Origin: Ectocarpus siliculosus
Lineage: Eukaryota > Sar > Phaeophyceae > Ectocarpales > Ectocarpaceae
DNA: 64,000 bases
Reading direction: 5' to 3'
Assembly (NCBI GenBank): GCA_000310025.1
Contig: FN649731.1
Span: forward strand, 2,275,114 to 2,339,113
Part shown: positions 27,652-50,180 of the stretch, one piece after another
Layout of the letters: the number at the start of each line of letters is the position of its first letter
Numbering within the stretch: position 1 is the stretch's first letter
The notes under the pieces: generated by a model
Told to the model about the DNA's origin: nothing
What the model saw: only the letters and a program-made list of their open reading frames with translations
The model's database searches: none
Position numbers and translations under genes: made by a program

Positions 27652-27901
27652 GTGAGTCGCCGTTGCCAGCGGCTCAACTGCGCATACTGTTACCGACGTG
27701 CATGCTTGTCCTTTTGGGGGATTTAATATGCTCGTGTGAGGTCGGTGCAGGGTCCATTCCTTACAATAATTGTGGGGGATGTACATACCCTAGCGTTGGT
27801 GGACTGCGCGTCCCCCCCCCCCCAAGCCATTGCGAGACACGACAGTTGGTAGGTAGGTGAAGTGATAAAGTCTTGCCAGGACGGCTGTCCCCACGAACTT
27901 T

Positions 27902-29292
27902 TCAATCGAACTCTCCGTACCGAACTTTGTTGACATACATCATGAAGAAGGTCTTGCTCCCAGCCGTCGATTGATTCCTACATAGATTCCAATCACCAGG
28001 CACCGGGAATGTAAACGCACAACGCTGTCTACCGTCGAGCTGCATGTCCGCGTGTACCCGATGAACCGAAGGTACCTGCTTTTTCAACAATGTACATGTA
28101 CACCCAACACTTTCCCGCAAACCCCGTCCCCCGTCCCCTGCATGTCGCGCGAAACGTGCCGACAGGAACAAGGCGCCCCCGACTGGCTTCATGTCCAGGC
28201 TAGGGCTGAAGAACCGACACAGCTCGTGGTTTTGAGCATGGCAGTTCGTTTGTTGTAGTGCTTTCATTTTTTCCCGAGGACGGGGGGTCACGTCTCCGTG
28301 AATATTGTGTCTGTTAGAACCCCGTGTCTTTACCATGCGTGTAACCTCACCGGGCAGTATCTACTTGTTGTCTATTGTTTTGTTTTTCGAATTCGTATTC
28401 ACAATCGGTTGTTGCTTCTTGTGCTTCCTCACCCCTTTCGTGCCTTCAAGGCCGAAGCAAGCTTGTGGTGAGGAGAGGAGTTGTTTTTGTCTTTTGCTCT
28501 GGGCTGGGTCTTGGTTTGTTTGTGTTTAGTGTTGTGCGAGTATCTGTGTGCCAAGCAACGCGGCGTAGACGCCGGGAGCACATGTACAGAATTGCTCGAT
28601 GTAGCATGCGCGTGGTTGTGTGGTCCCGTTTTTCTCTGTAGTACTGTTGACATGTTTATGACACCTGCCTGTTTTGTTGTGGCGCTGTCTGTGCGTGTTC
28701 CCAAAAGCTGTGAGATGGGACTTAAGCGTTCATCGATAAGATACATGCCAACATGTGTCTAGTATAGAGAAGTGCGAGGGCCATGAGAACGGAGAAGATT
28801 TTGGAACTCGTGCGCCAAGGTGGACACTTTGGGTCGGTCGTGGTATCTTCCTGCGGGTGTACATACCGTGTGCCTCGTATGAACGAGACAAATGGAGTAT
28901 TATTAGGGGCACACTTGATGCCGCTCGCTTCAATGGAGACAGACCTCCTTCGTGAGAGGCACGGAGAGCTTCGACCGCGCCGGCAAGTTAGACCAAGTTT
29001 TACTTTGCTTCGCTCATTACACTGCATGCTGCTCTAACAAGCGCATGCATACCTATGGCATGTTTTTTTTGCGTGTCTTTGGTCATGGCTCGCTGCAGTT
29101 TCTCTGGAACTGGAACTGTGCATGCAAGTGCTGCGTTCTTTCTCTCGAACACAATCAATTGATTCGTCGTGCCTTACCTCCTTGCTGATGCGCGCATCGC
29201 AGCCGCCCCTCGCCCTCCCTCGTAGCCCTGGAGCACATGCACCACGTTGGCTCGAAAATGGAAGGCACAGTTGGACAGGAGGCACCGCACTT
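27902..29292 (-). CDS. Unidentified gene, two supported exons including the 3' end
   Basis: I do not recognise this gene. The terminal exon is 28075-27902: it follows a good AAAAGCAG acceptor and encodes 57 residues (VPSVHRVHADMQLDG near the start, VNKVRYGEFD at the end) before TGA. An upstream exon at 29292-29178 begins EVRCLLSNCAFHF and ends with the strong donor GTAAGG. Its phase (2) does not match the terminal exon (0), so at least one linking exon between 28076 and 29177 is missing. The stop lies close to the 3' end of kinase B, which makes the two genes convergent. Confidence 0.45.
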
Positions 29293-29383
29293 CTGTTGTA
29301 GCAACCCCAAACCGCGATAAACCCATCGGAGAGTTCAGAGAGGTGCATACTGCACACACACACATCTATCTTGTGTATACTGT

Positions 29384-29455
29384 GTTGGATCAGTACCAGT
29401 ACGGACATATGAAGGTACTGGGTAGAGAGAGATCGGAACGGTTTTTAGTGTGAAG

Positions 29456-29486
<31 letters not shown>
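29384..29486 (+). repeat. SINE-like dispersed repeat, copy 3 (5' truncated)
   Basis: Contains only the 3' half of the family, from GTTGGATCAGTACC through GGTACTGGGTAGAGAG to TGTGAAGACAACA, then about 28 bases of CAA repeats. Confidence 0.75.
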
Positions 29487-29487
<1 letters not shown>

Positions 29488-30061
29488 ACTGTAGTCTAAC
29501 TTTTGGACAGAGAGAAGAGGTGTTGCTGCATGCTATTCTTAACGTTGTAGGCGATCCCTAGACGCTACATAGCCCCGAGGTCTATGGCATACACACGATC
29601 TGTTATTTGTGACTTTCAGGTCTGACCGGATGTATGTACGTTGACTGGAGGAAACTAATAGACTAGATAGAGTGTGATCACTTTTCTGTCTGCTGTCTGA
29701 TATGGTAAAATATTTACGTTCAGTTCGCCATACGACAAAAAACAGGACATCAATTATTGGAACGTTGGCCCCAAAGCACACGCAATCTCTCAATCACAAC
29801 GGATTCATCTCTGCTCTGCTGTGTATCCAATGTTAGTCATGCGAGTGTACGTCCCAAGCCCCCAACACATCCACCCGAGGGGGCCTCCTGGTTGAACCGA
29901 TGGAACACCCCCCCCCCCCCCCGCCTCCCATCCAGTGGACCACAGCATGACCTGCAACCACTGCAACCATCTGAAATTGTTTGAAATCAGCCCGCACCCA
30001 CATCTTGATCGGCTAGCTGCACATCGCATTGCCACCCACAGCACCACCCGACGTCACAGCC
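29487..30061. other. Intergenic, no gene seen
   Basis: A short stretch with a C homopolymer at about 29907-29922. No supported exon. Confidence 0.5.
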
Positions 30062-30297
30062 ATGGCCGCGACAACGGTACCTGGCTGCTTTGCGTGCCAT
30101 GTGGACTGTGCAACGGGCTGTGCCGCCGACGATCAACCCTTCGATCACCCCGACTACGCTGACTACAAAATACCGAGCTTTGACGAGAAGGACGCGGACG
30201 AGGCGGAGCTGCGATCGACGCGACTGCATAGCAATAATAGCAAGGAGGAGCCCCAGGACTCAGATAAAGGGATGGAGATCAGCACGGACGAGCCTGT
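30062..30297 (+). CDS. Possible first exon of an unidentified gene
   Basis: A stretch from ATG at 30062 encodes about 79 residues: a Cys-rich start (PGCFACHVDCATGC), then an acidic, charged section (FDEKDADEAEL, then EEPQDSDKGMEI), ending at a GTGAGT donor. No known family is evident. A further open stretch after an acceptor at 30344 keeps frame (PVMVRDPSPLHFLAKQAY) and ends in TGA near 30482. That join would need an intron of only about 47 bp, far shorter than any other intron in this window, so it is doubtful. Confidence 0.35.
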
Positions 30298-31774
30298 GAG
30301 TGGGACTGGAGTGCGTGTTGAGGAGATTGGGTGGATCTGCAGCTGCTGATTGTTTTGTTCGCATCTACGACAACAGCAGATCTGCCGGTGATGGTGAGAG
30401 ACCCTTCGCCGCTTCATTTTCTGGCCAAGCAAGCCTACAAACAAGTCTTACGATTTGATGAGGGATTACATGTGTCGTCTTGATGATGGTGAGCCTCGCC
30501 ATCGCCAACTCACACCAAGGGGATAGCGCACGGCTCTCAACCTTGTCCATCGTGTGACAAGAGGCGATGACTCTTGGTTTGCCTGCTGCTGCCAGCATAT
30601 TTGTAAACACGACTTTACCCCCTACCAGTACTCGTTGCCCCTGTTGGCCAAGTTCCCGTGGCTGTTCATTTTCCAATTTTGGTGCGTCGGAACCAGAACA
30701 AAAACAATGGCTAGCGATCCACACGCACCGTACGTCATCATGGTTGATTCCCGTCATCATGAAGACTACTCCCATCAAAACACAGCGGATGTCGTGCAGA
30801 ACTTTCGATAGAGAAGCGGACCATCCATTTTGGCGCATTGCGAATAGCGTTGTTGACACAGATGCCACAGCAGCAACAAGTTCAAAGATAATCGAAACAA
30901 CACCTTCCTTCTATGACTTCTATGTACACGTTCCCAGCAACATACAGATAGATACACAAGACGGCCACCAAACTGTCTTGCTGGCCCTGTTACCCACGGG
31001 GGAGATATCGCTGTGTGCTGCTCGGGAATCGTGGAAATACAGGTAGCCTTCGCTGACGCTATGGAGTCATCGCTATGTAATCTATCTTTGACTCTCGTCT
31101 TCTACTTGTATGGATTCGTTGGGTTATATTGAAGTACTAAGAAAACAATGAAGAAAAACGTTGGGGCACGAACAAATAAAAACCATGCCGCCTTTCACAG
31201 CGGTCGGACCCTCCCTCTCTCTCGCTCTCTCTCTCTTTCATGCACAGACACCCGATAACGGGATTGAGAGATTGAGATCCTGGCCCTGTTCGCAGTGTCA
31301 GCAGATGATTTCGTAGGAACGTGCGTAGTAATGTGCACACACACACCCTTGAACACTCAACTGTTCATTTTTAGTGCCTGTTTAGTCGACTGCCTGTCTG
31401 CAGACAACAAGTGCCACTGGAGTAGGGAGTTTGAAAATTGAAATTTGAAATTTGTTGTCGAAGATAACTACTGACTTGGTTGAGAATTCATGCACGCGGT
31501 ATTGTTGCGTACATACTTCAAGTATTTGTCTGCAGACAAAAGGCTTCAACAGGACTTGGGCCTTATCGCAACAGCAGCAACAACAATGTAGAAGTAGACA
31601 ATAAATATGCTTCAGTCCCTTTCTTCAACAGCACACGGGCGGCCAAAAGTTACCGCAAACAAAGGCGAAGATAGAGCCCCCCGAAGTCAGAGGTACCAGA
31701 AGGGGTGCGAAAAAACAGCAAGATACAGAACAAGATAGCTCACTCTTTGTAACTTCACGGGGGGGGGGGTACTC
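30298..31774. other. Intergenic, with a dispersed repeat
   Basis: Apart from the repeat at 30951-31128 there is no supported gene. A hydrophobic open stretch (YSLPLLAKFPWLFIFQFW) at 30629-30680 ends at a GTGCGT donor and could be a lone exon. Confidence 0.45.
30951..31128 (+). repeat. Dispersed repeat, copy 1 (relative at 48215)
   Basis: Aligns over about 180 bp with 48215-48402, sharing AACTGTCTTG, CTGTTACCC, GGGGAGAT and GGATTCGTTG. Both copies end in an A-rich stretch, which suggests a retroposon. A third, shorter copy is at 46072. Confidence 0.7.
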
Positions 31775-32160
31775 TTATGTTTTGCATGCCTTAGCGGTTA
31801 TACCATTGACCACGCGTCCTCGAGAGGACGGAGCATTGTTCCCACAGGACCGATCACCGATGGCCAATCGTTCCTTCCTACTTTGCCAAAGGTGGCTCAA
31901 AAATGTCTTCCCTAGTCTGTCTATCCTAACGATATCCCTTCCCGCCTTTTCAAACCACTTCCTACTCCCCAGTACAGCTACCGTCCTCTCCTCTCTATTC
32001 CATGCCTCAAACATCTCCCTGTACGTCCCTTGTATTTTTCCCAGCTCAGTCATGTACACTTCCCTCTCCTCTTCGTACCACGGACATTCCGCGACTAAAC
32101 ATGAACACGGTCTTCGCATTCGAAGCCGCAATCACATTTGAACGTGTCGTCTTCGTCGTT
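31775..32160 (-). pseudogene. LINE (non-LTR retrotransposon) 3' fragment, frameshifted
   Basis: The minus strand encodes the region that follows the reverse transcriptase in many LINE ORF2 proteins: a Cys-rich knuckle (FKCDCGFECEDRVHV) followed by the conserved ECPWYEEEREVYMTEL block. The knuckle and the block are in different frames, with a TAG ending the first, so the copy is broken. It is 5' truncated; no reverse transcriptase motif lies upstream. Confidence 0.7.
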
Positions 32161-35100
32161 TACCGTCCTATGTCTTCATCCACGTTAACTTCACGGCGGG
32201 GGGGCATTTCATATGAAAGGGGCGCATCCTCTTCGGAAGTACGGTAGCCGCCTGCAGACAACTATAATAGCGTACATGTACATGGTGCATTTTTGTTTTG
32301 TGGACAACCGCTAGGCAGGCACGGCCGTTCTCATAAAGTAATGTGCAGTTAGTTGGTAGTTACAGATGTACAGTGCATGGATTGTGTGTGATACTGTAAC
32401 TCTCTCTCGCTCTCCCCTCCGCTCTGAGACACGCTCGAAAGTACACGGTGAGACCCCGCCAAATGGGAACGACGACTCAGGCAGAAGTTGAAAGCGATTG
32501 GTCCGGCGGTATTTTCATGGCATCGAAAACGAAACAATGGTTTCTCTGCGGACACGTATACTGTACAGTACCGCAGGAGGAAAGTTGTGAGCCCTGCTGA
32601 AACGTCAAACACATACACCGCGAGGTGATTAGATTGGCGCCAGAATAAATGGGACGAAAGTGCGCGCACGCACACAGCAGTAGTCCACAATTTCTCCGAG
32701 CGAATGCAGCAGACAGTGGTGGGTAGCCAGACACGGCCTGTAAATGCGTTGTTGTGACTCTGATACTGGACACAAGCGCCGCCTCGGAGCCGTTCTCCAC
32801 TTGCACAACCCCGGGTAGCACAAGCCTCTGGCATGGATGAAGCTGGGTGTCCGGTAGCCTCTTTAAGCCATGCTCAGACCACACATCGGGCAGGGATGGT
32901 AAATTAGTGGGCCAAGAACGGGCAAAACTCATGTGCAGAGCCAGCCGTGAGTCGCTCGGTTGTCGAAACGCCAATACAGCAAGAGCTTCATGAAACCCAG
33001 GACGGCCTCGAGAGCTTGTGCTGTTCCGTGGTATTTTAGAATATCGGTTTGCTCATCTTGTGGTGAACTTCGATGCTGCGGTCCATTTACATGTTTTTGC
33101 GGCGGAATCCACTGTGGAGACAGGTTTGGAATTATCATTTTGGTATTTCTTTACTCTCTCTAGAGCGTCAGCAGTCCACACGTCACGTAAGAAAAAAATC
33201 CCACCCATCCTCTCCATTCTTGACTCCTCTTATTTGCCGAGTTATTTTTCTTCCGTCCTTGAACCCAAAAACACGCAGGCGGAGGGCTCGTCCTTGATGC
33301 GGTTCGTGTTGTGGGCTTTGAACGTCAAGACTGACACGGGCGCATGACCAACCTACGGCCGAGAGATACTGCATTGACGACGTTTCGTGCGGTAGGCCTG
33401 TGCCTGCTGCCGCCTTTTACGGGATGTGGCCCGGATGGGTGAGGCCCACCTCGAATATGCCATTCGGAGGCCCTTAGCTTGCTCGATCCCACTGGAGCGA
33501 AAACGTGAAAATCGGATGGAATGGGGCCCGGTGTATGTGTGCAGTGCGCCTTAGCCGTGGAGGGGAAGTAGGAACTGGGAAATTGGGGTTGGGGTTGCAC
33601 CCCTCGCTTGGCGCTTCCTGCGGCCTCTCTGCGACGTCCAGCAGTGTCGGTGTTATGCCGTGCTGCGGCAATCGCTACCTGCTCTGTGTATCAAGCTGGT
33701 GTTGGCCGGCAGCCAATTATTGCGTGCATGCGCGCGTGTCGTCTTGCACATGAGATCATCCTGGATGGTTGTTATCATCTACCAGGCCCGTCGGCACATA
33801 CAGTGTTCGTAGTCTGCGTGTGGAATGGTTTGTTGGTATACTGGAAGATGCAATGGGGATACCGGCTCGCGGTCTCGAAAAAGGAAATTTTTGTTGGTCC
33901 CGTGAATCCCGTAGGATAGTTTTCCTGTAGTTCCAGGGGGCTGCAGTTACCCGCGAGGTTGACAGTCTTCGTGGAGTGCATGTCTTTTTCCTGGCGAATG
34001 GTGTCTTGTTGTAGAATATTTCATTTCTCGTGCATCAGGAGGCTGTTGGATTGAGTTTCATGGAGGTGTATATATTTGTCTAGCGGAGCAGTAAGTGTTC
34101 ATTCGTTGTATCTTAGGTATGTAGTTGCGTCTAAAGGCGACAACCCGCACAAAGGAGTCAGTTCTCGAGTAGTGCGCGTGATGCATGAAGAACGTGGTGG
34201 CTGCGATTGTCATAGAAGTTGTTTCTTTTGTCGTGATAGTTTTGTTTCAGTAGCGCGTTCATTCTTTGGTCAATCGTGAGCAAGACACGAGCGGACCTCC
34301 CCGCAGCTACGCTATTTGTATCACGTACGTTTTATTTTCATGTCTACTGTAGTGTTCTTGTTTCTGCAGCGTTCCGTGCAAGTGTGTGGGAGATCAGCGC
34401 ATGTGAACCTCAGTTGGTCTGGTTGAGTCTACTCAACGAGCCTTTTGTTTGTCCGGTTTCCAACGCGAAATTTGTTCGCACAACTCGCCCGATTGTTAGC
34501 AGCAGCGGTAAACGATAACGGTGGAGATAGGGCACGTTTAGTTGCTGTTCATCTACCCATCCATCTCTGGGGGGGGGTCGCGTCCCAGGTGTCAAAGTGG
34601 GCTTCCTCGACGAGGGGGTGTTCAGCCTTCGCTGCGTGCTTAATGTTATGAATAGGGTTAGCCTACGGCTAGCACCCGCATTTGAGAACCTCTAGTTTTT
34701 GGCCGGGGTTGGGTTCTTAGTTCCCGGGGTTATGCTACGAATGGCCGCTAATTTATTTAGTGCAGCAAGCGCACAGGTTCTTAGCCGGGCGCGTATGGTG
34801 CCCAAGCTCATAGACTTTGAGTTTGACGAGACTGTATCAATCAACTTCTTGACGACCACGTCTTGAAAGAGGATGCTAGCTAACTGTACCCCAACTACCA
34901 TACGCTAGTGGTTTCCCTCGCAAGATCACTTCGGATCCTGGACAAACGACTACGTAGTACGTCGTATTGGAGAGGTGTTGACCCTACACCGTTGGTGTGT
35001 TGAGAGCGGTTCACCGCGCCCACCATGCGCCGTGATTTCCGAGTTTACCAAGTCAGGGCGTTATGCTTGCTTCCGCTGAAGAAGACTTGTTTCGGTGCCT

Positions 35101-35806
35101 GCGTGCATGTGGCTTTTGGTCTTGCCCGCCTACGAAAAGGTACGCGAAGCTAAAACGCCTGACGGCCTCCCCGCACAAGTAGAGAATGGTCACAACAATT
35201 TCGTGCTTTTTGGCTACCGAGACGCAAAACTACGTGCCGCAGTTCTGGACCTCCGCAAAACTCGGTCGGTAGAGAGTTTTTTTAGGATGGACAAGGATCA
35301 TGATGGTTTTGGGCGATTTATGGCCGATGGCACCAGTGATGGAAACTTCTCGCCATTTTCGCGCCGGAGGAGCTGTTTTGTCAAACAAGAAAACGACGCC
35401 CCTTCGAGCGTGGTGTTATCTCGAACGGGTAGTGTTTCAGTGATCTGTGCATTTCTAAGAAAACGACGCCTATTTAAACAACTTTATTGAACCTGGAGTA
35501 GTCAAGAATCTGGTTTTTGAAGGACCTGGCGATGAACAACTTGAGCCTCACAGATAACATTCCACAAAAATTGCCTTTGAGTATCAGTTGTTGCTCGGTG
35601 AAGATTCCCATGCTTTTTAGTTTAGCTGTCTGGCTGTTTGACAACCTACCCGGCAACGACGTACGGTAGTCTCGACAAGGCGACGCGTGGAGCATGTGAT
35701 TCTCCTCAAAGTGGGGTTTGTGTTTCCGTGATAAATGACACCTACTACCTGCGCCATCCTGCAGCAACAAACAAACCTCTCTCCCACGTTTCAAGGCTAC
35801 CTATGT
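32161..35806. other. Intergenic, weak coding signals only
   Basis: No gene is well supported. The minus strand at 34692-34901 and the plus strand at 35095-35490 are open and not obviously low-complexity, but neither shows a recognisable domain or a matching exon partner. They may be retroelement remnants. Confidence 0.4.
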
Positions 35807-36148
35807 TCAGCGTATACTACTCCGGCCGCTCTCGATCAGGGGAAACTTCAGAGCCGACTCTTTTCTTGATAGCTGTCCAGGAGCATTACCAGGCGTCGGT
35901 AGAGTCGAATGTGATCGCGACGACGGCGATCTCGACCCTCCGCCGTCCTTGGCATGTTTTCTAGCAGGGAGTGTCGGTGCTGATGACGATGTCGATTGCA
36001 ACGACTTCGAACCCGGACCCCCCTTGACGGCCCGCTTGCTGGCCTGCTCACGAGGATGTTTATGTCTTCGGGAATCCTTGCTTCCTCGCGGCATTCTCGC
36101 CTGTCGTTCGCTGGCCTCGAGCCTGTTCCGATACAGTGGTCCTATCAC
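35807..36148 (-). CDS. Possible terminal exon of a disordered basic protein
   Basis: After a good acceptor (TTTCAATCGCAG, ending at 36149) the minus strand is open for 113 codons to a TGA. The product is rich in Arg, Lys, Ser and Pro (for example RMPRGSKDSRRHKHPREQAS) and looks intrinsically disordered. Another open stretch on the same strand ends at a donor at 36485 (NEVGGVQNDSEPCPSY within), but its phase does not match directly. It could belong to the same gene with a missing link, or either could be chance. Confidence 0.35.
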   Translation of the reverse strand: MIGPLYRNRLEASERQARMPRGSKDSRRHKHPREQASKRAVKGGPGSKSLQSTSSSAPTLPARKHAKDGGGSRSPSSRSHSTLPTPGNAPGQLSRKESALKFPLIESGRSSIR

Positions 36149-36822
36149 CTGCGATTGAAATGGATTATGGGTATACCCGTTAACACTTTATCCAACCCTC
36201 CCCCGTGGCAACGAGAACGTCGACCAGGCGGCAGATGATAATAGATGCATCGCGCCGGGACGAAACAAAACTGCACAAACATCAGAGCACTACATTACGG
36301 GAGAAACGCTCACGGCCCAACACCGGCATTTGTTACTACAGAGTCGGGCAGGGGATGTTCTCCACCAGGTCCGTTTTGGCGGGCATTTGTGCAGGGTCAG
36401 CCCCACCCCTTCATCCCGAAATACCAGCGCAGTACATCAAATATTTAGCGTACAGATGAGACCAACAGGTAGACTATACAGTACCTCTGCATATTGGAAA
36501 GACGAGTAGTGCCGTGGCGTTGTCGATTCTGTAGTATGATGGGCAAGTACTTCGACGACACCCACGTACTGTATGTAGTAGTTGGGCGGGCATCGTCTTC
36601 TAGACTACTGTACGAAGGACACGGCTCGCTGTCGTTTTGGACACCTCCCACCTCATTCTTCATTCTGCTGGCGTCTTGCCACCCCTTGACGGCCTTGTAG
36701 TAGGATGTGTTCGAATCCCCCGCATATCGATACAGGTCCTGCTCACCACAACAACAGTGGATACGGGGAATACCGCAAGACGGAGGGATGCGCGTGTTAC
36801 TGCTGCAGTCCTCAGACCGCAC

Positions 36823-37513
36823 TACACCACACGGGTGTTCTAAGCTCCGAGGTAGGCAGTTTGCTGCTCATTGCGTTCTACTGGTGCGACCGACGCGGAC
36901 ACAATCCGTGTTCCCAGGCTAGCTGCCTAGATAGGGTCGAAACATACTTGTGAAACATGAAATTTAATGAGAGGAAGGAGCCATAAAACAAAAAAAAACA
37001 CGACAGAAATGAAAACGAGAAGTTAGGTCTCCCAAACAGTCAGGCTTGGCATGTGACACGCCGCAAAAAGATCGACCAATTTGCGTAGTCAAAATCTATC
37101 CTACGCGGAGGTAGTATTTGTCGTGCTGAAACAAGGGGGCTGCAAGACGACTACAACTAACTGTACTGTTCTCGGATTGGTTGGTCCTCTTGGACTATAA
37201 TGCGAGTTTACTCTGCGTAGCCCGGACATGTGCTGTGCCTTGCATCGCGAGTCGAGTTGGCTGGCCTCGAACAGGTGACCGACCGCCACAACGAAAGGAG
37301 GTGCACACGGAGGATCTTTTCGTCATCGTTTGTTTTGTGTTTATCCATTGGACCGACCGGTGTTTATCTGGAAAAAAAAAGGCGATAAATAATGTGTAGG
37401 AATAGCACCAACAAAGCTCCTAATGGCGAAAATCAAGTTCCAGAAGCTTCAATTCAAGATGGGAGTGGGTTGCATTTTTTCTCTCGCAAGATCTTGGATG
37501 GGAAATGCTTGGT
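36823..37513. other. Intergenic, no gene seen
   Basis: Downstream flank of the EF-hand/CNB gene. AT-richer than the exons, with no supported coding frame. Confidence 0.5.
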
Positions 37514-40500
37514 CTAGTGAATGAAGCGAGGGTCCCGCAAGTCGCTTGAGAAAGTTCGGTTTCTCAAGGGAATCATCCTTGCTTTACGAAAAAATATTTT
37601 TCCTCGAGCGAACTGGGAGTTTTCAGAATATGCTACTGGATGATTACAATGTAGGTACGAGATTTTGCAAGGAGAGGTATCTACAGCACTCTGAATGAAG
37701 CGTACCTGCGTTTGGTTGTAGAGCTGATCCAATTCTCCCGATGTCAAGTACAAAAAAGCGTTGTGTCTCGAAACCACGCAAACCTGCACATCCTGCGAGA
37801 GAGCCACCACCTGTCAGGCAAGGCAGAGAGAGTACCACATATACATGCACGCACCAACGGGTTTACGGTTTCCAAGTGGGACAGATTACTTCTCTACGAC
37901 TCGCTACTTCGTGCTTCATAAGCAACAATAAAAGCCACCCACCCACCGCCAGGATTCCGTTGCTTTTACACCGATAAAGTCACTCCATTCTCTCAGCGCT
38001 TTACTACATTCATTCGTGTCGCAGCTCTTGTTCCAACCATTTCATTCAATCTAAAGTTCAGAAGGGGAGTATAACGATCGATCGTCGTGCGGTAAGCTAC
38101 TCAAAACTCTTTGAGCCCTCGGGACACTACAATATTATACCTGGTATTGCCTGGTTTCGAATCCTAGCACGCAATCCTCTCCCGTCACCTCTCCCACTGT
38201 CGAGGTCTTCAGGTTTATCGTCACCTGTGCACGAAGGAGCGGGAGGGAATGCTGGAGCCAGAGACTTATATCGCCGGTGTCAACACACGCATCAGGCGGC
38301 GGTGAGTCGGTGTCTCAAACTGTTGCACTCCATCAACACCGCTCACTAGCTGTGTTCTTCTTGCACCAGGTTGTTGTTCCAAGTTGAACACACTGCGCAT
38401 CTTACCCCAATTTTGAGAAGTGATGAGCTTTAACATGTATCTTCCACTACACCAACGTGATGCCCAGTGAGGGAGTAATGGCTAGCTCGGACACAGGTGA
38501 AAACATCTTGTGGACCTTCAAATCCGAGGCATTCGCATGTGCAACAACGATCAAAACGCGCTGTCCGAACCCAAGGGATCTCTGACGGAGTCAACCCGTT
38601 CACCCAACAATGACACGAAATGAGATCGATCGATGGCTTTCTTTGCACCGAGACAGAGTGGTGAGGGATGCATAATATCATCCGGGGAAATAAAAGCAAG
38701 TCCGGTTTCTTGCCGTCTGTGCCTTTCCGTGTTGGGTTGGTGTTGAGTCCAAACTAAGCTTCGCAACCTCAGCCTCAACTTCAGTGAGTGGTGCGTTTAG
38801 CACCGTCAGATGTCAAAAAGGCCTGGGGGGCGGGGGAGCACTCCTGCCAGCTTCTGGAAGCCGCTCTTAGGGTATTCACCACCGCCTGTGCATGACTAGC
38901 TATTCAGGGTATACGTCCCGGTTTGTTTATGTGTGTCTCACAACGATCACACCCGGCGTCTGCGACCATGCACTGAGCGTTCGCCCCACTCCGTTTGGCA
39001 TCGAACACACGCTACAAGTGTCTTCGCACAGGAACGCGTCAGCTTGAACAGACTATGTCTTCGCCAAAAAGCAATCTCTTTGCAAATTCGCGGTAGCTCA
39101 TTGGTTTGGGCCTACCTTCAACAACGGGCAATGCCGCAAGAAGTACATGCTGCAAGGATAGGACTTGTGATTTGGTCGAGTTCTTGCCTGCTTCATGGAA
39201 TTTCGTTGGTGAGTCTTCTTGTTGGAGACCGGCCAACGGTTCACGAAGCGGTACCGTAACACCCTTTGGGCCAACACCTGGCTCGTTCGAGTTGAAGTGG
39301 GAGAGTAGACGCGCCAAAACGCACCGAGGGAAGGTGGCAGCTTGAGGGAGCGATTCAGAGCAAGAAGAAGAACGAAAGATCTACACACACGAGGCGTTGT
39401 ATTCTCCGCGACACGACAACATCGTGTCATATCGTCATCATCATCATCATCACCATCATCATCATCCCGTACAACACGAAGCATGATTCGTCAACATCTT
39501 CTCGCCTTTCCACTGAACACGATGTAGAGGTTGTGTGCAGGCTCGCCCTGCCGGTAGATGTATTCGCCCTTCGCGTGGCTGTGGTGCGCCATACAGTACG
39601 CAAACGCCCTGATCTTGGAGTGAGACCAGTTCTTAGCCAGCTCGAACGTGTCTTGGAGAAGGTTGATCTGTTTCGTTCATGTCACGCACATAACACCACG
39701 GGCCATGTGTGCATTGGAACTAAACACAAGGACGGAAAGCAATGATGGCATGATTTTCCTCACCAGATCGCGGCAGCTGCGGCATCGGTGACTTCAACAA
39801 CGGGCGGGCTTTCATTTCACTACACAGCCTTTTCGGCAAACGCGCAAACACCCCACACTGCGGAGGGGGTTCCAGAAACACGAATTCTCCCACCCGAAGG
39901 GTCACCATACAATTTGACGTTGGTTTCACCACACCGATCACCCAGTAGCGGAAATTTGGAGGATACAAAATCGATCCCTCTAGCATTTGGATGCTCCTGT
40001 CAGTGTCCAACCCAGTTTCGAACTATGTCTGGCGTAGCGTTCTGTAAGCACGTGGCCAAACACATATCCCGAGAGTAAATACGCCACAAATTAGTTGCAC
40101 CGTAGAAATGTCCCGTGGCTACGGCAGCGAGATGAACACTTCCAGGGCAAGGGTGGTGGGGCTAGAGGGTTGGGGTTGGGTTGAGGTGTAAGTCACGAAG
40201 GGTTCTCAATAGGTGTTGAAGCTGATGCTGGGGTTCCGAGGTCTCAGGTGTTTGTTCAATCGCCCATTCGCCATCACCGAAGTAGCTCAGCATTCACGCA
40301 CGCTAAACTTGGCAAGCATCTTGTCCACTAGGACATTCATCCCGCACCGTGCAGCATAGGTATCTTGATCTGCGTTGCTGCCCAGAGAAATACCCAAACA
40401 GGCGCCACAGAAGCCCCCTCCCCCCTCCCCTCGTTGCAGAAATGCCTTCGTACCTTCATTTGCATCTTGTCCATCAGGTACTTTGAAAGAATATGTCGAT

Positions 40501-43500
40501 AGTCGCTGGTACGCATCGTCACTAGCAAAGCTCCCGATGGATCGGCCTATGGAAGTTGACGCACAAACGGCCGTTCAGTTGACCAGCGGCGAGGCTTAAC
40601 ACGCTTTGCTACTTTCTTTCGGGTCGAAAAAGAGTAGGCTGCCGCAGCGTCGGCAATTTGTCGCCGAGGCAACTACTGGCATCTACCCGACAAGGAGCCT
40701 TTGGACGGCAAGGAACGACCTGTGTTCTAACTATGACACACGAAAAAATAAGACTGTTTTGAATCGCTCTGTAGTGTCAGCCACACCTTACACACTAACA
40801 ATGTTCTGTCAACTGTGGTACTCTGTGCGCGTATTCGTTCTCCGGTACTTTGTAGTCTGAAATTGTCGTTGAGGCCGCGCTTACGAGGTCCAGCGGGTTC
40901 CTTCTGTTAGAAGCAACCCTACGAAGACACAGATTCCGGGTACTGTGCGCCGCACATGTCGAGCACGTCGCATAGTTGGGCATCGTCGTGTAGTAACCCA
41001 CACTACTGATCAGTATTTGCACGGACAAATCAGCACGGTGCACACCACCTCACGGCCGCTCTTCCAGCCATCTGTGCCGTACGAAGTATACAGCGGGTCT
41101 GAAATAAACGAACCCTTTTCACGTCGTACAATATGGTACACGGTATACGAAGAATATTGGTACTCCAAGTCATCATCAGCCCACCTTGACAGTCGCGGTT
41201 CGTTTCTCAAGATTCTGCAGACCCAGTTCTCCAAACGTCTCCCCCGGCCCTAGAACAGCCACAGGGCATTGTTTCACAAGAACCACGACGTGCCCGTCCA
41301 GTATCATGTAGAATGCCTGTAATCACGTCGTGCAGTGGGGTGGGGGCGGCATGGACGGAAGATCGGCTCGAGACAGTACGCAACTGCTGTAGGACGCGGC
41401 CCTCTTCAACGCGACAAAGTAAGACGTCTAGTTTTCAGGTGTTTTGTGACCGAAACAGTGATCTACTGAAGACGATACCCTTTGGGTATAATTGGTGTGA
41501 TTTGGGCATGTACTCGAGACACGGGCTGATGGTATGGGCCGTTTGCCAGAAGGAGGAAACAAGTTCCTGTCTCTTCAAGGGCCCGCCCGCTGTCACCGCG
41601 GTGTCGGAGCCGGGGACCCTGTTCGGAAAAAGTCGACGCGACGTTCTCGTAGCAAGGGAAAGACAAGACAACTGAAACAGTGTAACTCGCGAGGAAGACG
41701 AGCCAAAACCGAGCCACGGTCAGCTGTTTGATTACTCTCGTCCTCTAGATAACACAATGCATAATGTACACCATGGCGTTCGGAGTAGTGCATGCAACAA
41801 GAAATACGTTTAGAGAAGGTACAGGTTGCTCAGGAGAATCCCGTGACACCGGTGCAGTTCCGTCTGCTGATACTGCGGGCGCCACACAAACACGCAAGGT
41901 TGACCGACGAAACCCTGTTTCACCTGAAAGCGCTGTTTGCAACGTATCGTATCCGTTCCCAGCCACCAAGTCCCTTATCAGCCAGACTTGGCTCTTCAAC
42001 AAAATCTGGCAAACCACTACATAGTAGCCAAACGTGCGCTGCTGAGTGCTGGTACGTCTTTTCATGCACCTCGGATTCGTCCCCTTCCGAGAAAAGCTTC
42101 TCCCCGGGCCGAAGCTCTTGACACTCCACCACGTTGGTCACTTCCATTAGCCGTTTCGCCCCCAAAGACCGCAACGAATCCTGAAGGGAAATTTCGAAAG
42201 AAAATACGACCAGTGTCAGTGTCATGGACGGCTCTTAGATCGTGCCTGATCCAACCCAGCAGGACATCAGCTGGTAATTCGTGAGATGATGTTCTACGAC
42301 TGTGTAGGTGCGCGCTAGCCGTCGTCATTGTGGAGTATTGGCTAGACGGGGTGAAGGCGTACACGGTATTATGACCTGACTTCCAGCAGCCATGTCGTGG
42401 GCACGGTAGCATCCTGCGCCTTGCAGTCTTTGGGGTAGGAATACAAGCTAGCTCTCATTGGGGCTGCCCGTTGTACTCTAATTGAAATGAAATTTCTTGA
42501 AGAGTTTCCCCCGCGAAACACGCACGCACATAGATCCTGGTCGTACTTTCAAAAATGTGTGATTTCGAACGTACAAGCACTGGCAGGTGTGTTCTGTGCA
42601 CAAGGGAAGATACCTGCTGCCCCAGCCAGCCGGTAATGGCCTGCACATCGCGGTGGAGTCGTTCTTCCGGTTGTTTCTGGAGAGCTTTTTTTATTTCTGG
42701 CACCCCATAGGCCCCATCTTCCTCCGAAAACCTGATTCAGCGAACGTGAACGAGCATCACCTCATGAGTGAGCCAGGAACTGAAGACACTACCTGCATCC
42801 CTCCAGGCGATGACAGCTAGGGGACTGTTGGCAGGAAAAAAAGCGGCCTTCCTTGTTGCTGTAGACATGTTCGACACAAGTGTTTTGGTGCCTTGTACTC
42901 GGATGCCTATGCCCAGGTTGCGTTCGTTCAACGTGATGTGCTCCTATGATGGATGTCCCTTGTCTCAAACCGAAACCCTTCGGAATAAGCGAAGCACCTG
43001 GGTTCGTATTCGAAAGTCGTCTGTTTCTTGTAGGGACCGCGTGATTTTTGGCGATGGCTTGACCGATCCGCAACTACGCTGCCTTGACAGAACGCGTGCT
43101 CCAAGAGGCCTCTAAACATACCCAACGTTGATCGATCGCCACGGTCCTCGTGAAAAGGCGAAAGACGAGTCGACGGCACCCCGTTTGGTGTGTTCGTTCG
43201 ACCTGTCACCGTGGGTGGATTTGTTGTTCTTTGCTTGCCTGGAAAACACCTGCTGAAAATCGTCCCTGCCGATCAGCCAATTTGGAAACACCGGGTCTTG
43301 TTGGGCGTCGAGGTTGCCGCGCCAGGTGCTCAGCTCGCCCGCTCGCTTTCGGCGCTTGTACAGCCGAATTGTGCTGTCTAACTCCTTCACGTCGATCTCG
43401 CCATCTCCGTCGTTGTCTGGGGACACACGCAAAGCAGAAAGCACAACGTAGATGCCGCTGTGAAGGTTCGCGCTTTTCACGTGCCACGTTACGAGGTGCA

Positions 43501-45116
43501 TATAACGCAAAGTGCTTCGAGGGAATTCCCCTTATGATATGGCTGCCAGCTTCCTGTCCAGCTTCCCGTCCAGCTCCCTGTCCCGAGGGGGGAGACTGGA
43601 CAATCCGTGCCAGAGGGAATACACCCTACCAACGTTGAGGCTCATCAAAACACAAACATCCTGCAACTACTATTACTGTTTCGTCGATGCTTTCAAGAGT
43701 GCGTCACGGAACAACGTTTGATCAATACGGGGAGAATACTGCACTGTACGGATAAAACTATCAAAGGCAGCTCATATTGAAAACGTAGGTGAACTGGTCG
43801 ACCATATTCCACCGCTTATGCTACCCCCCCCAAACAGGTGGTCAACTGGACCCCATCGTTGTTCTCACCCATGAAGGTCACAAGAGCGTGGGCTTGTACC
43901 GTCGTGATATTGATGTCCAGCTCCACGAGCGCCCGTTCCAGCTCTTGGTGCGAGAGCTTCCCATCACCACTAGAGTCAAGATCTGTGAATGAATGTCAGT
44001 GTGCGTTTGATCGGTGGCACCATTCACAAGCAATAGCCGTGCCATCCTATCACACAGACGCTGCTTCTCATTACCATAGGCTAAATGCTTAGCAGACGAA
44101 CAAGTGGATGGGGTTAGGTTGTTTTCATTTGTTTCTTCAAATCAAAAACTGTTCCCGGTCTCTGATCGGTACCTTCGAACACCCGTACCGATCCAACTGA
44201 CCCGGACCGCTTCCTTCCGCGGTCACAGGCCAACAATAAAATTCTGTGGCAACAAACAAGTTATTACACAGAAGAACGGGAACATGAAAATTCGCCCTCT
44301 TGTCTGATGCATTCAATGTAGGCGAAGACCTTCCTTCTAAGCTGCGAACCAAGGCCTGTTCAAGCGTATGCGCAGGACGGTAAGGACGTAGACCACCAAT
44401 AGTTCCAATGAACTCTTTGGCGTGGTTCCTCATCAGTGCCGACCTTGCAAGCAGCAAAGCTAGACTGGTGCCATCCACAATACACAACTTTAAGCTTGTT
44501 GCACTCCACGCCAAGCGTGACAATGTCAAGGGCAGAAGGTGCATGACTATGGTTTAAAAAGACGAGGCTGCACCTTTGAAGATGTGGTTGATGCCCTTGC
44601 CCGTACGGCTCATGTACGCAGCAAGCTGCGATACCGCCGCGATTGTTTGTCGGTGGTCGCTGCCCAACATTTGATCAAAATGCTGCCTGCAGTAACATAA
44701 AACCATGGTGAGGTAGAAGAGAATAATAAGTAAGGCGCCAGGAAGTTGTCGAGGAAGTTGTTGTGTTGTTGTCTTCACATTTAGTCTACTAACCGTTCCG
44801 ATCTCTCCACCCACATTACAGGACAGTTAGTACTTTCATCTGTCCGCTGATCTTATGTAACAACAATTGAACGTGTTTCAAAAGCTACATATACAATACA
44901 TAAGTTTGTCGGCTTTGGGAGAAACAAGAATGCGACGACGAGGTTTTGGCGGTTAGGTGAAGTTCACCACCACCGCCGAGGCCTATCTTACTGGTGGTCT
45001 GGTATGAGCGCCTACCCCGCCGCGATGTCCGATTCATCGTCATGCTTCGACTCCAGCGACAAGCTCCTTCTATTCGAACTCCGTGAGAGCGAGCTCCGAC
45101 AGCTGGCGTTGTCCAT
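37514..45116 (-). CDS. EF-hand and tandem cyclic-nucleotide-binding domain protein
   Basis: Predicted calcium and cyclic-nucleotide sensor with no kinase or channel part in the resolved exons. Exons in order: 45116-45016, 44686-44574, 43982-43869, 43416-43250, 42676-42614, 42180-42070, 41316-41185, 40546-40454, 39667-39514, 39277-39054, 37792-37706 and 37612-37514 (TAG); about 485 residues. The N-terminus is Ser- and Arg-rich (SNRRSLSLESK). EF loop 1 is residues 74-85 (D-S-S-G-D-G, Glu at position 12) and loop 2 is 110-121 (D-N-D-G-D-G, Glu 121). CNB domain 1 is about 186-298 with an intact phosphate-binding cassette (FGEL, Glu 253; RTATV, Arg 262). CNB domain 2 starts at about 299 (YRQGEPAHNLYIV, later LFGEDI). 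About 15-20 codons between LFGEDI and DVQVCVV are missing, so one small exon in 37793-39053 is unresolved. The join 39514 to 39277 is the least certain. Confidence 0.8.
39434..39466. repeat. ATC/CAT trinucleotide microsatellite
   Basis: About ten repeats of CAT with one ACC interruption, in an intron of the EF-hand/CNB gene. Confidence 0.85.
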
Positions 45117-45148
45117 CTGCCCTTCCACCTATGCGCCACATGCATGCG

Positions 45149-45179
<31 letters not shown>

Positions 45180-45482
45180 ATAATATATCCGTATTTGGGA
45201 CTGATGAGGGAAACGCTTACGGCGGGCAGCCCACCACAAAAGCAGCGGTGATGACAGCGATCCGCTATGAGCGAGCTTTTTAAACGGAGGTATGTTTCGA
45301 TGATTGGTCGAGACGTGTCCGTCAAGGCACGCGCACGACAGGTGGTACGTGCGAGAGAGAGAGAAGAAGGTTGTCAAGCGTAACCAATCAATCCCAGTCC
45401 TCCTCGCATGTAGCGGCCTAATCTGGCACGTCGCTGCCCAATGAGAACGCGTCAAGATTCATGTTGTCTGGCTGTGTACCAG

Positions 45483-45536
45483 TAGAAATCTCGAATGGGT
45501 GTAGTCTTTCTGTCTGTGTTTTTATTATTCCTTAAT
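45483..45536. mobile_element. Small repeat insertion flanked by an 8-bp duplication
   Basis: A 54-bp copy of the repeat family containing CTCGAATGGGT, TAGTCTTTCTG and TTATTATTCCTTAA. It is bounded on both sides by TGTACCAG (45475-45482 and 45537-45544), which looks like a target-site duplication. Confidence 0.6.
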
Positions 45537-46071
45537 TGTACCAGCAGCCTTCACGGATTCACCCACCCCCGAAAACCAGCTGGCGGTCTTTCTCCGATCT
45601 ATCTATCTATGCATTGTATGGGTAGGGTTAGAGTTTAGGATTATACAAGTTGTTTCAGTATTGTGCTGTGAGCATAATTATCCATGTAGCTGCTGGTAGT
45701 GCTTTCGGCGCCGTGTGGCCAACAAACAACACACGGCACGTGCGTATCTCGAACAAATATTTAGTCAACCGTTTCTCACTGAGGTTCACAGTGTAGTTCC
45801 CATTCGGCTCGACCCCTGGTTCTCACGCAGTGATTTCCATCATCATTCCTGATTCCTGATTCCATGTCTCTATCCATCTAGTTTTCCCTCGTCTGCAGCA
45901 CCTGCCTCCCTCCCACAGACAATCCTATTGCGTTGTAATTATTCACGGCGAAGACTCAGCGACCCCTCGAGGGGGATGGGCTTATCCCACTACTGCGGCG
46001 GCCTCTCTTTGACTTTCCCTCTGCTATACAGCTGCGACTCCAGCCTATACGAAGGTCCTCTGTGTGCCATG

Positions 46072-46115
46072 ACTCTTTTTTTTATGATAGAGATGGATTC
46101 GTTGTGTCGCATTAA
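46072..46115 (+). repeat. Dispersed repeat, 3' fragment (relative of 48215)
   Basis: Matches the end of the family: TATGATAGAGATGGATTCGT, then TGTGTCGCATTAAG and an A run. The 5' part is absent, as expected for a truncated retroposon. Confidence 0.6.
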
Positions 46116-46546
46116 GAAAAAAAAATTCGTAATCTCGCCGCGTCTGCCTCGCCGTCAAAGCTTCAACGATCAACAATCAACCCGAGAACGAAACCACACC
46201 AGAACCAGAGCGCCCGTGATCCCGCGATCGGAAGAGAGAAGAGAACTGGATTGACCTTGTTCCCCGATGTTGAGACGCCCCCTCCTGGTCTAGCGCAGCA
46301 TCAAACGCATGAAGCATCTCGCGGTACTGGTTCTGCTCCTGCTTCCGCTCGCGAGGCCTCGGCTCCAAAGCACCGTCAACAGAGAAGCAGAGGTGATGCA
46401 TTTGCGTATGTATGCATCCGAGAATCTCGTAACGTACCACCAGCCAATTCTCCACAGCCCATGTCGTGGTAGAGCATTGGATACTGCAGCTATCTCCCTT
46501 GCCACTGTACAGCACACGTGTCGGTCGTGCAAACGAGCTGTTTGAT

Positions 46547-46628
46547 CCACCACATCCCGTTCGACTACTGCTGTTGTGGGTATATCTCGAATGGGTAGTC
46601 TTTCTGTGTGTGTAGTATTCCTTATTTG
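46547..46628 (+). repeat. Foldback-family repeat, direct copy
   Basis: Carries CATCCCGTTCGACT, GGGTATATCTCGAATGGGTA and GTCTTTCTGTGTGTG, then TATTCCTTA. The reverse complement of this unit lies at 47148-47222. Confidence 0.7.
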
Positions 46629-47147
46629 ATGCCAAGTTCGGGTTATTTCATCTACGAAGCTGCAACTTTGACACCCCACCCATCTTGGTAGCACCCACCG
46701 CCGTGACCAGCGCGTGCAGCGCGCGTTCTGCTTCTACTGCTGCAGCCTCCCTACGCTTCTAGTGTCTGATGTGGGAAATGCTGCCTGCTGGTGGGTAAAA
46801 CACAGCCGGAGTTGTGTGGTGCACGCGCACGCGATTGTGTGTCGTGTGCGAAGGGGCAGACAAGAGCTGAGAAAATGAGATGCGTTACATGTACGAGAAA
46901 GACGAACGGAGGGCCTAAGAGCATGCCATACATAGATCAAGACGGGCGTTCAAGGCCTAATGACTAATGACCTTTGTTCAATGTGGCGTTGGTGTTTGCT
47001 GGAATGCATACATGCATACACCTGTGTCGGCATGCACTTTCACTTCACCGACCGGAGTAGAGTTATTTAAAACTCGATTCATGGACCGGCGGGACTTTTT
47101 TGGGCCTTTCGCTGCTTTGTACATTTTTGGTGAAAAACTCTCGTGAT

Positions 47148-47262
47148 ATTAAGGAATAATAAAAACACACACAGAAAGACTACCCATTCGAGATATACCC
47201 ACAGTCGAACGGGATGTGATATAAACTAGTCTTTCTGTGTGTGTTTTTATTATTCCTTAAAA
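47148..47262. repeat. Inverted repeat (foldback element)
   Basis: The left arm (47148-47183) begins TTAAGGAATAATAAAAACAC and the right arm ends with its exact complement, TTTTTATTATTCCTTAA at 47262. The arms are about 34 bp and complementary through AGAAAGACTA, separated by about 45 bp. TTAA is at both tips. Confidence 0.8.
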
Positions 47263-48214
47263 CTCGAGAATAGATCTTCACAGGATAAAAACACAAGACT
47301 GTTAGCCTGCGCCAATACATGCTCGGACAGCTGGTGTTGGGCAGGTGGGCTGCCGTTGTGGTGCAGCCAAATTTGATCAACCGGAAACAAGCAGCAAGCG
47401 AAATTAGAGTGCCTTTTTTCAAGGTGATACGAATATGCACACCCTAACGTAATGAACGAACAGCGGACAAGGCGCGTTCATCTCTGCCAAGAGCGCCCCC
47501 AACCCACGCTAGGTGATACTCTGTATGTTGGCACTCGGGCACGTTGATGATAACAAACCGTTGGTCCTTCTTCTCTTTTTTTTGTGCCAAAGAGAAAACG
47601 AGAGAGGGGTTAGAAAAGACAGGCAGACAGGCATAGTCTATACGCACACACACCCTGTGCATCAACGGCAACAACCTCCAGCCTCCCCGCCATGCCGACT
47701 AGGAAGAGCCGCCCTCCCCCCCACAAAAATAACGGGGCAGCCTATAAGCTACGCGGCGAGCCTTGTGGAACTGTGTCTGTTCGTTAGCTCGTCTGTGCTT
47801 GCGTGCGATGGCGGCACCAGAGAAAGCGAGAAAGAAAAAGGAGCACGACGAGAGGGGAGGGCAGAGGGGAAAAGAGAGGGTGCAGCAGCATGCAGCAACC
47901 TCACGTACGCGTTGATACGCATGCAGCACAACAAAAAATCGTTCGGGCAGTGCCCGAAAGCTTGGTTGGGGGCTGGCGGTGGTGGCAACGTTGTTATGAT
48001 TGTGTGCTGTTTCTTTGCTGTTGTGACGGCGGTGATGTTTGCTGCAAAAACGAGGAGAGAGGAGAGGGAGACAGGGAGATAGAGAGAGCAGTCTGTTCGT
48101 CTCAGAACACAAATATATACTTGGAGCTCTGGAGCCCCAAACATATTTTTGCTCACGATTCATGCATTTTTGCCCAAAAGTCCCCTCCGATATAAAACTG
48201 CCTTCCCAACATAA

Positions 48215-48402
48215 CATATATGAGACACACAAGACAGCTACAAAACTGTCTTGTTGAGCCTGTTACCCGCAGGGGAGATGTCCCTATATGCTGTCTGGGA
48301 AATCGTAGACATACAGGTACTTTCTGACGCTATGAATTCATTGCTAATCTGTCTCAGACTTTTTTCTATGATAGAGATGGATTCGTTGTGTCATATTAAG
48401 AA
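48215..48402 (+). repeat. Dispersed repeat, copy 2 (relative at 30951)
   Basis: Shares AACTGTCTTG, CTGTTACCC, GGGGAGATG, the GGATTCGTTGTGTCATATTA motif and an A-rich end with the copy at 30951. Confidence 0.7.
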
Positions 48403-48555
48403 AAATATAAAATAAAACTCGATTCACCCACTTTTCGGGCTCTTCCACTGGTTTCATGCATTTTTTCGAGTTTTAAATAACTCTAGTCCGGTGTGCTCTT
48501 TTTTCGGACCATTTTTCGGAGATTCCGGGTATTTCGTTGGGGTCTTTCCACGACC

Positions 48556-48898
48556 GGCAACCCCTATTTGCACGACGCGAGTGCAAATAATTATTCCTTA
48601 AATAAGACCGTGCACGACTCGACTTGTGATTGGTCAAAACAGCGCGCGCAGCGTGCGGACCACGTTCTGACGTGCGGACCACGAACGTGGCGCAGCCGCG
48701 TTCGTGGCCAGTCTCGCCACCACGGCCCCGGTTGGACGTCCGTGAGGGTTAGGGTTAGGATTAGGGTTGGGTTGGGTGGGTTGGGTTGGGTTGGGTTGGG
48801 TCGGTCACGTGTGTGTATAACCCAGTTTCAACCCATCCACGGAGGCGTTTCGAAGTGCACGTCTTATTTGCACGCGCGTCGTGCAAATAGGGGTAGCC
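48556..48898. mobile_element. 343-bp foldback MITE with 14-bp direct flanks
   Basis: Left end GGCAACCCCTATTTGCACGA and right end, read inward on the other strand, GGCTACCCCTATTTGCACGA, followed by CGCG and GTGCAAATAA on both sides. Each end is itself a hairpin (TATTTGCAC and GTGCAAATA). GTCTTTCCACRACC flanks the element at 48542-48555 and 48899-48912 with one mismatch, consistent with a target duplication. The interior holds no coding frame but includes the telomere-like tract. Confidence 0.75.
48746..48801 (+). repeat. Telomere-like GGGTTA/GGGTT tract
   Basis: GAGGGTTAGGGTTAGG followed by ATTAGGG and several GGGTT(G) units. TTAGGG is a common telomere repeat; here it is short, degenerate and internal. 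Confidence 0.6.
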
Positions 48899-50180
48899 GT
48901 CTTTCCACAACCATTTTCAACGAGCCGCGAGGCCCCCTCCCGCGCACTAGCCATTTGTTATCGAGCCCGGCCAACGACCGCAACATTTCCAACAATCTTG
49001 CTCTTTGCATCAACCGCCCTTTGATACACTAGATAAAAGAAAACAGAGCTGGGTTGTGCTTTTTTTTTCCGAGAATAATCTTCTTACAATTTAAGTTTCT
49101 CTGAGAACTCTTCATTTCGCTTCTTTCGGCTTCTGTGAGCGCTCTATTCCGGTCTTCTCGGGCTCTCACAGAGCAGCAGCATTTCCTCTGGAAATTTGGC
49201 ACTTTGGTGGACTTTCCACCTTTTTTATCTTCCGCTTTTATCTCTCTCGCCTGCTGCTGTCACCCCGCTCTGTACCATCATACCACGCATTCCACTCGAA
49301 GTACGGCCCTCTCTGTGTGTGCCTCCTTCTCTTCCGTTCCTCCGTCTCTCTATGTCTCTGACGGTCTGTCTATCCACATTCTCTTCTCATTTTCGCCTTC
49401 TCTCTTGACCGCTCTCTCGCGTCGGAATGGTCTGTTGTTTGTTCCGATTCCGTGTGCTACTGCTGTACATTTTTTTTTTTTTCTAACACCTTCACACGGT
49501 ATGCACTCACCTCCTTTCACCTAGGTACCGTATTCTCTCTCTCTCTCCTCTCAGTGTGTGTGTGTGTGTCTGTGTATCCACGTTGTCTTTAAATGTTTGC
49601 TTTTCTCTCTTCACCGCTCTCGCGTCGGAATGGTCTGTTGGTTGTTCCGATTCCGGCAACGGTGTTGTGTGCTCCGGTTCCGATAATCCCTTGTAAAGGT
49701 CCGGAAATACGAAAATACACTCCTTTCTACCTCCACTCTCGATGGCTACCCCGCCCACTCCTCCCACTCCCCTGTAGCTACTCTATTTCATTTGTTCAGA
49801 ATTCAAGTAGTGCGTCCAATTCTTCGTGCTGTCTTTATTCTTTTTTTGCAGTTCAAGTAGTGCGTTAAATTGGTAGTGCTGACTTTCTTCATTCGCAGTT
49901 CAGTCGACAATTTTGTCTATTTTTTGCAGTTCTGAGTTCTGGATCTGTATCAGATAATGGAGGGGTACTGGGCACGGCGATGGGAAACAAATAATGGACC
50001 TTTACATCTCCGAACCTCCATCGTGGGAACTCCACCCTCTTCACGGAAACTTTAACTGCCATCGGTGCCTACCTTCATTTTGAACAACATCCTACACCCA
50101 CTTTCAGAGAAAACGTTGCCTCGGAATCGCTTCAAATAAAGCGGGGGCGCGCAGCGCCCAAAACCTTGTATATATATGCG

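Follow-up and report, generated by a model that had tools for sequence, protein, structure and literature searches.

Cells usually connect Ca2+ with cyclic-nucleotide signalling by way of several proteins, among them calmodulin, cyclases and phosphodiesterases. Among the described systems closest to the one discussed here, PKG carries a kinase domain C-terminal to its cyclic-nucleotide-binding (CNB) domains, and the PKA regulatory subunit combines an N-terminal dimerisation/docking (D/D) domain with a basic segment and two tandem CNB domains, with no catalytic domain in cis. The subject of this report is a gene of the alga Ectocarpus siliculosus, here called the EF/CNB gene, which lies on the minus strand of a 64,000-nucleotide stretch of the genome (C6:2275114-2339113, "the window"). 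Read from the N-terminus, its protein has a start rich in Ser and Arg, then two canonical EF loops, then a linker and finally the pair of CNB domains; Pfam detects no output domain in it. On balance, we lean towards a single gene whose protein would sense both Ca2+ and cyclic nucleotides and regulate a partner in trans.

Plasmodium is a member of the SAR group. Its protein CBP-O likewise has several CNB domains and no recognised output domain, works in vivo and binds both cAMP and cGMP (PMC12422582). It differs from the EF/CNB protein in having four to five CNB domains after an N-terminal region in which no domain is recognisable, and the main text of that report does not mention an EF hand. 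For Phytophthora, kinases with a CNB domain and kinases with EF hands are described, in passages that leave aside whether one protein combines the two (PMC3019232). Male gametes of Ectocarpus are reported to upregulate K+ channels that bind cyclic nucleotides as well as an adenylate cyclase, and sperm navigation to involve free Ca2+ (PMC3879662); nothing links the EF/CNB gene to gametes. No description of an EF-hand/tandem-CNB protein was found in the titles and abstract openings of the papers listed from the open-licence literature, and such architectures may already be held, unstudied, in protein-architecture databases.

EF-hand pair and tandem CNB domains

The original prediction, made from the letters of the window, had described a Ser/Arg-rich start, two EF loops and two CNB domains, and profile searches with the assembled 493-residue chain bear out the domains. 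The Pfam model EF-hand_7 matches at 30.8 bits (E 3.8e-7), just above its cut-off of 30, and three single-EF models also exceed their own cut-offs. By the EF-loop consensus for positions 1, 3, 5, 6, 8, 9 and 12, standard residues stand at all seven places in both EF1 (DSSGDGKLSHQE, residues 74-85) and EF2 (DNDGDGEIDVKE, residues 110-121). The loops are of the canonical 12-residue type and are predicted to bind Ca2+. The pair was aligned over both loops with calmodulin and centrin, with which it shares a canonical EF pair; the window protein differs from them in having only two EF hands, fused to CNB domains.

Pfam cNMP_binding matches the same chain over two stretches with 84.8 bits (E 4.2e-24), and each domain alone (48.8 and 42.6 bits) beats the cut-off of 27.5 bits. 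The best relatives of CNB1 in the PDB are PKGs (E 4.5e-24), the top entries being presumably Plasmodium PKG, and the match includes the region before the barrel; the best relative of CNB2 is PKG 1 (3shr, E 6.6e-8). The phosphate-binding cassette of CNB1, FGELGLQNLEKRTATV, keeps its Glu and Arg and carries a Thr at the position of Thr193 in PKG I (R-T-A-T-V). In PKG I, Thr193 is described as anchoring both guanine and phosphate, and its mutation abolishes cGMP selectivity (PMC3080414). Because the Thr after Arg in CNB1 aligns with this cGMP-favouring residue, CNB1 is probably cGMP-favouring. The cassette of CNB2, TGEDCVLGFETRQYQV, also keeps Glu and Arg and is otherwise degenerate.

The degenerate second cassette would suit a scaffold or structural protein, for example a flagellar one, in which the CNB domains are mostly structural and the Ca2+ site alone is regulatory. 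Such a role has a parallel in the cAMP-response proteins of trypanosomes, two of which have EF hands and which are reported as predicted to associate with the flagellum (PMC10354285). However, the Glu, Arg and Thr expected in a functional cassette are all present in CNB1, and no direct evidence points to a flagellar place; we regard this alternative as unlikely.

The EF/CNB protein shares with PKG the closest PDB relationship of both CNB domains, the Thr in the CNB1 cassette and an alignable region ahead of CNB1. It differs in having no detected kinase domain, in the EF pair on its N-terminal side and in the Gln, rather than Thr, of CNB2. With the PKA regulatory subunit it shares two tandem CNB domains, no catalytic domain in cis and a basic segment N-terminal to CNB1, but it has no D/D domain by Pfam, it has EF hands, its CNB1 carries Thr rather than Ala, and its basic segment differs in position and residues. 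The original prediction drew its comparison with PKA regulatory subunits, but by sequence the best PDB relatives of both CNB domains are PKGs. Of the defining features tested, one is missing for each family: no D/D domain was found, as a PKA regulatory subunit should have, and no kinase domain, as a PKG should have.

No output domain detected

The prediction saw no kinase, channel or exchange-factor domain in the chain, and the same-strand scans support this. Flanking sequence was read with stops as X, and no Pfam match at E ≤ 0.1 was found in the minus frames of 45117-49616, 33014-37813 and 26000-33100, or in the plus frames of 28000-37498; these scans are blind to domains split into very small exons or unknown to Pfam. 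A kinase domain C-terminal to the CNB domains, as in PKG, has no Pfam match in the minus frames of 26000-37813, and neither the protein nor the flanks scanned on its strand match a transmembrane channel of the CNG/HCN type or a CDC25-type guanine-nucleotide exchange factor, as in Epac. Within the 493-residue chain no other Pfam family exceeds its cut-off, the nearest being the CNNM2-type CNBH at 25.3 of 27 bits, and NCBIfam models match only far below cut-off. An N-terminal D/D domain (RIIa) is not among the Pfam matches to E 1, a kind of domain that sequence methods can miss. Elsewhere in the genome, one RIIa match is listed at E ≤ 0.1 (C23:3626730-3626807), on a contig with no listed CNB match. 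A protein kinase exon is present in the window at 25681-25914 (PF00069, E 3.5e-13) on the plus strand, opposite to the EF/CNB gene.

Linker and candidate control segment

Two short motifs lie on the N-terminal side of the CNB domains. The prediction had likened RRSLS (residues 16-20) to a basophilic kinase site. The motif is present and fits R-x-x-S, but the PKA consensus is R-R-x-S, which it does not fit, and it makes weak evidence for such a site. A more interesting candidate control segment is KRRKRA (residues 130-135), which follows EF2. Beyond it, alignment indicates a linker helix at residues 174-198.

KRRKRA invites the idea of a Ca2+-gated subunit of the PKA-regulatory kind, in which the segment would act as a pseudosubstrate, bound in the active site of a kinase of the AGC group, and be released by Ca2+ at EF2 together with cyclic nucleotide at the CNB domains. 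Tandem CNB domains with no kinase domain found in cis fit this idea, as does the position of KRRKRA N-terminal to CNB1 with Ala at the phospho-acceptor place, where R-K-R-A agrees with R-R/K-x-A; many protein kinase exons, unsorted as to AGC or other, are also present in the genome. Against it, Pfam finds no D/D domain, and KRRKRA lies at an atypical distance, 38 residues ahead of the linker helix and 86 ahead of the Pfam CNB1 match. The pseudosubstrate consensus has a hydrophobic residue after the Ala, whereas Gly stands there in KRRKRA, and a basic run after the exit helix of an EF hand may serve something else. We consider a PKA-like subunit of this kind distinctly unlikely.

In the dual-sensor reading that we prefer, Ca2+ would load the EF pair and cyclic nucleotide the CNB pair, probably with cGMP favoured at CNB1 and an uncertain ligand at CNB2. 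Both inputs would then alter how far the intervening linker, with KRRKRA and the helix QPEERLHRDVQAITGWL that follows, is exposed, and this linker could contact a partner, for instance a structural protein or an AGC kinase. Of the dual sensor acting in trans that was first proposed, the EF pair, the tandem CNB domains and the absence of a detected output domain stand, and the proposal is the most economical reading of them; its ligand binding, the coupling of its two inputs and its partner are putative. If true, a single soluble protein sensing both Ca2+ and cyclic nucleotide would be a point of direct crosstalk between the two signals, and the gene offers a defined target for probing that crosstalk in an alga. 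Its importance would be lower if binding is absent or if the architecture is already catalogued in many related genomes.

Several observations weigh against this reading. In CNB1, Gly replaces the usual Ala in FGE-x-A-L, and in isolation the Thr-bearing domain of PKG I is reported to prefer cGMP only about two-fold (PMC3080414). CNB2 has Gln where cGMP and cAMP sites mostly have Thr, Ser or Ala, and Cys-Val for the usual Ala-Leu; because of these substitutions CNB2 may bind no cyclic nucleotide, and its ligand is uncertain. Ligands of CNB domains can change, as in the PKA of Trypanosoma, which is reported to respond to nucleosides (PMC10959531). The gene model adds further points: exon 9 depends on a GC donor (39506/39505), the C-terminus probably lies past exon 11, beyond the model, and the transcript that would join the EF half to the CNB half is putative. 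Finally, 8 stretches in viral_contigs and 63 in genome_contigs fit peptide patterns from the protein and none was confirmed as a relative, in searches by exact peptide pattern that reach close relatives only and cover no eukaryotic relatives of the Ectocarpus genome.

Gene model

The EF/CNB gene runs from 45116 to 37706 in 11 phase-consistent exons that encode at least 430 residues (Table 1). The three minus frames were read, splice sites were picked by eye and the exons were then cut exactly. Joined, they give 1290 bases, or 430 residues without a stop, with all 10 junctions in frame. The introns are 329-1281 bases long; intron 9 is of the GC-AG type and the other nine are GT-AG. The ATG at 45116 has an in-frame stop directly upstream. 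A GCT-type triplet run is present at 45153-45179, just upstream of the start codon.

Table 1. Exons of the EF/CNB gene and the read-through tail, in window positions
Feature	Position	Strand	Content
Exon 1	45016..45116	-	Start codon and N-terminus rich in Ser and Arg; RRSLS at 45071-45057; donor GTAGGC; exon 2 entered at phase 2
Exon 2	44574..44686	-	Helical lead-in to EF1; matched in the genome search with the 430-residue protein
Exon 3	43869..43982	-	EF-hand 1 (loop DSSGDGKLSHQE, 43977-43942) and helix to EF2
Exon 4	43250..43416	-	EF-hand 2 (loop DNDGDGEIDVKE, end 43382; first codon split by intron 3) and KRRKRA (43357-43340)
Exon 5	42614..42721	-	Linker helix EIKKALQKQPEERLHRDVQAITGWL ahead of CNB1; part of it can be aligned to the N-terminal region in the top PKG matches
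Exon 6	42070..42180	-	CNB1, first part
Exon 7	41185..41316	-	CNB1 barrel and phosphate-binding cassette FGELGLQNLEKRTATV (41235-41188)
Exon 8	40454..40546	-	CNB1 end and connecting helix
Exon 9	39506..39667	-	CNB2, first part; GC donor AAG/GCGAGA
Exon 10	38141..38224	-	Most of CNB2 cassette TGEDCVLGFETRQYQV at 38185-38141, its final residue being encoded by exon 11
Exon 11	37706..37810	-	CNB2 barrel end and start of C-terminal helix; then donor CAG/GTACGC
Read-through tail	37514..37705	-	Probably intron; positional G+C and negative coding score

The junction between exons 4 and 5 bears on whether there is one gene or two, an EF-hand protein (exons 1-4) next to a CNB protein (exons 5-11). No homolog or cDNA spans this junction, and it can be drawn in two ways: an alternative with exon 4 extended to 43203 and exon 5 starting from 42731 likewise gives an open reading frame, in which the linker would be 19 residues longer. 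Both versions, however, are in frame, exon 5 contains no Met and is preceded in its frame by a stop about 5 codons upstream, and the intron between the exons, at 528 bases, is ordinary for this gene. Two adjacent genes are therefore highly improbable, and we keep to a single gene.

The small exon predicted to be missing from CNB2 was recovered as exon 10. A CNB profile made from eight domains of known structure served to score 9,857 open chains, which led from exon 9 to exon 11 through one middle exon or none. The chain with exon 10 at 38224-38141 ranked first (40.9 bits, as against 34.2 without a middle exon). In Pfam, CNB2 scores 28.4 bits without this exon, over profile positions 3-37, and 42.6 bits with it, over positions 3-80. 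The margin in favour of the exon is clear but not enormous. An acceptor at 38251, 27 bases earlier, scores nearly as well (39.1 bits) and may be the true start of the exon. As to exon 9, an end at a GT donor was rejected, since the best such chain reached 34.4 bits, compared with 40.9 when the GC donor is used. Intron 9 is thus a probable GC-AG intron on the CNB profile score alone. An ATC-type triplet run lies within this intron at 39435-39466.

The C-terminus fared differently. The end first predicted, at 37514, results from reading through a donor, CAG/GTACGC, that stands exactly at the boundary of exon 11 and the tail (37706/37705). G+C at codon positions 1/2/3 is 0.598/0.370/0.679 in the exons through NQTQ and 0.438/0.438/0.422 in the 192-base read-through, and the coding score per codon, taken with the cut at 37703 in the same frame, is -0.198 in the tail and 0.056 to 0.193 in the exons; as the score was trained on the same exons, their positive values are in part built in, and the informative value is the negative one of the tail. 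Given the absent codon-position signature and the negative score, we reject a C-terminus that reads through to 37514. Because the signature is absent and a donor stands at the boundary, the last 63 residues of the 493-residue chain are probably intron. If so, at least one further exon follows, and the transcript could run past exon 11 into an output domain that Pfam scans of exons miss. A search downstream of exon 11 for a terminal exon gave no trusted candidate. Such a domain is very unlikely, given that the three minus frames of 26000-37813 hold no Pfam match at E ≤ 0.1 and that introns in this gene reach only 329-1281 bases.

Genome-wide searches covered 189 Mb in 492 contigs. Among the 18 matches listed for the 430-residue protein, in a search that scores the best candidates only, no second copy of the gene was found: 11 are its own exons, and none of the remaining 7 has an E below 0.0066.

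Other CNB loci and signalling parts in the genome

On the CNB strand, 15 CNB loci were checked for CNB domains by profile and for EF loops and kinase motifs by pattern. They comprise the window, 13 loci that account for 19 family-search matches (L003, L004/L005, L006-L013 and L016-L018) and L019, which came from a protein search of the genome. The loci were mostly about 9.9 kb long (L006, 5.3 kb), and the list is incomplete, as the family search at E ≤ 0.001 missed the window gene itself. EF loops occur at three of the 15, namely the window, C346 and C30, and there were none in the 125,022 bases of opposite strand covered at CNB loci. Kinase motifs follow the CNB domains at three loci (C479, C25 and C13:3022), as expected for PKG-like genes and consistent with the protein kinase matches in the genome.

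At C346 (L003, 1500-10500, minus), two CNB domains are followed by an EF pair (EF-hand_7, E 1.8e-8), without a kinase motif; C9 (L008) has CNB exons nearly identical to these and no EF-loop match. At C30 (L004/L005, 2531500-2549500, minus), two CNB domains are followed in L004 by an EF hand (EF-hand_6, E 3e-5, below cut-off) and then by a run of N. Both loci resemble the window gene in carrying two CNB domains and an EF hand on one strand with no kinase motif between them, and both differ from it in that the EF hand comes after the CNB domains and in being absent from the matches to the window protein. We infer that the EF and CNB parts belong to one gene at each locus. EF and CNB motifs together at three loci, the window included, suggest that the combination has been used more than once in this genome. 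C30 may be a gene of another type, even a kinase gene, because a kinase exon and DFG motif lie upstream of its CNB domains on the same strand, with a weak EF match (E 0.0024) between.

Cyclase-domain exons and protein kinase exons are also present in the genome. One may speculate, at long odds, on a coincidence detector. KRRKRA would be freed or hidden when Ca2+ binds the EF pair and cGMP binds CNB1, a soluble subunit would in this way give an AGC kinase a dual response, and the gene would form, with C346 and C30, a wider set of EF-CNB regulators in this lineage.

Apart from signalling genes, a light-harvesting protein from another contig (L014) matches fucoxanthin-chlorophyll a/c proteins, best of all FCP17 at 409 bits over 198 residues; fucoxanthin-type antennae of this sort fit the stramenopile affinity implied in the original prediction. 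Light-harvesting (PF00504) arrays lie on C92, C232, C488 and C16. Many of their scores are identical, and the arrays suggest recent tandem copies or repeated contigs.

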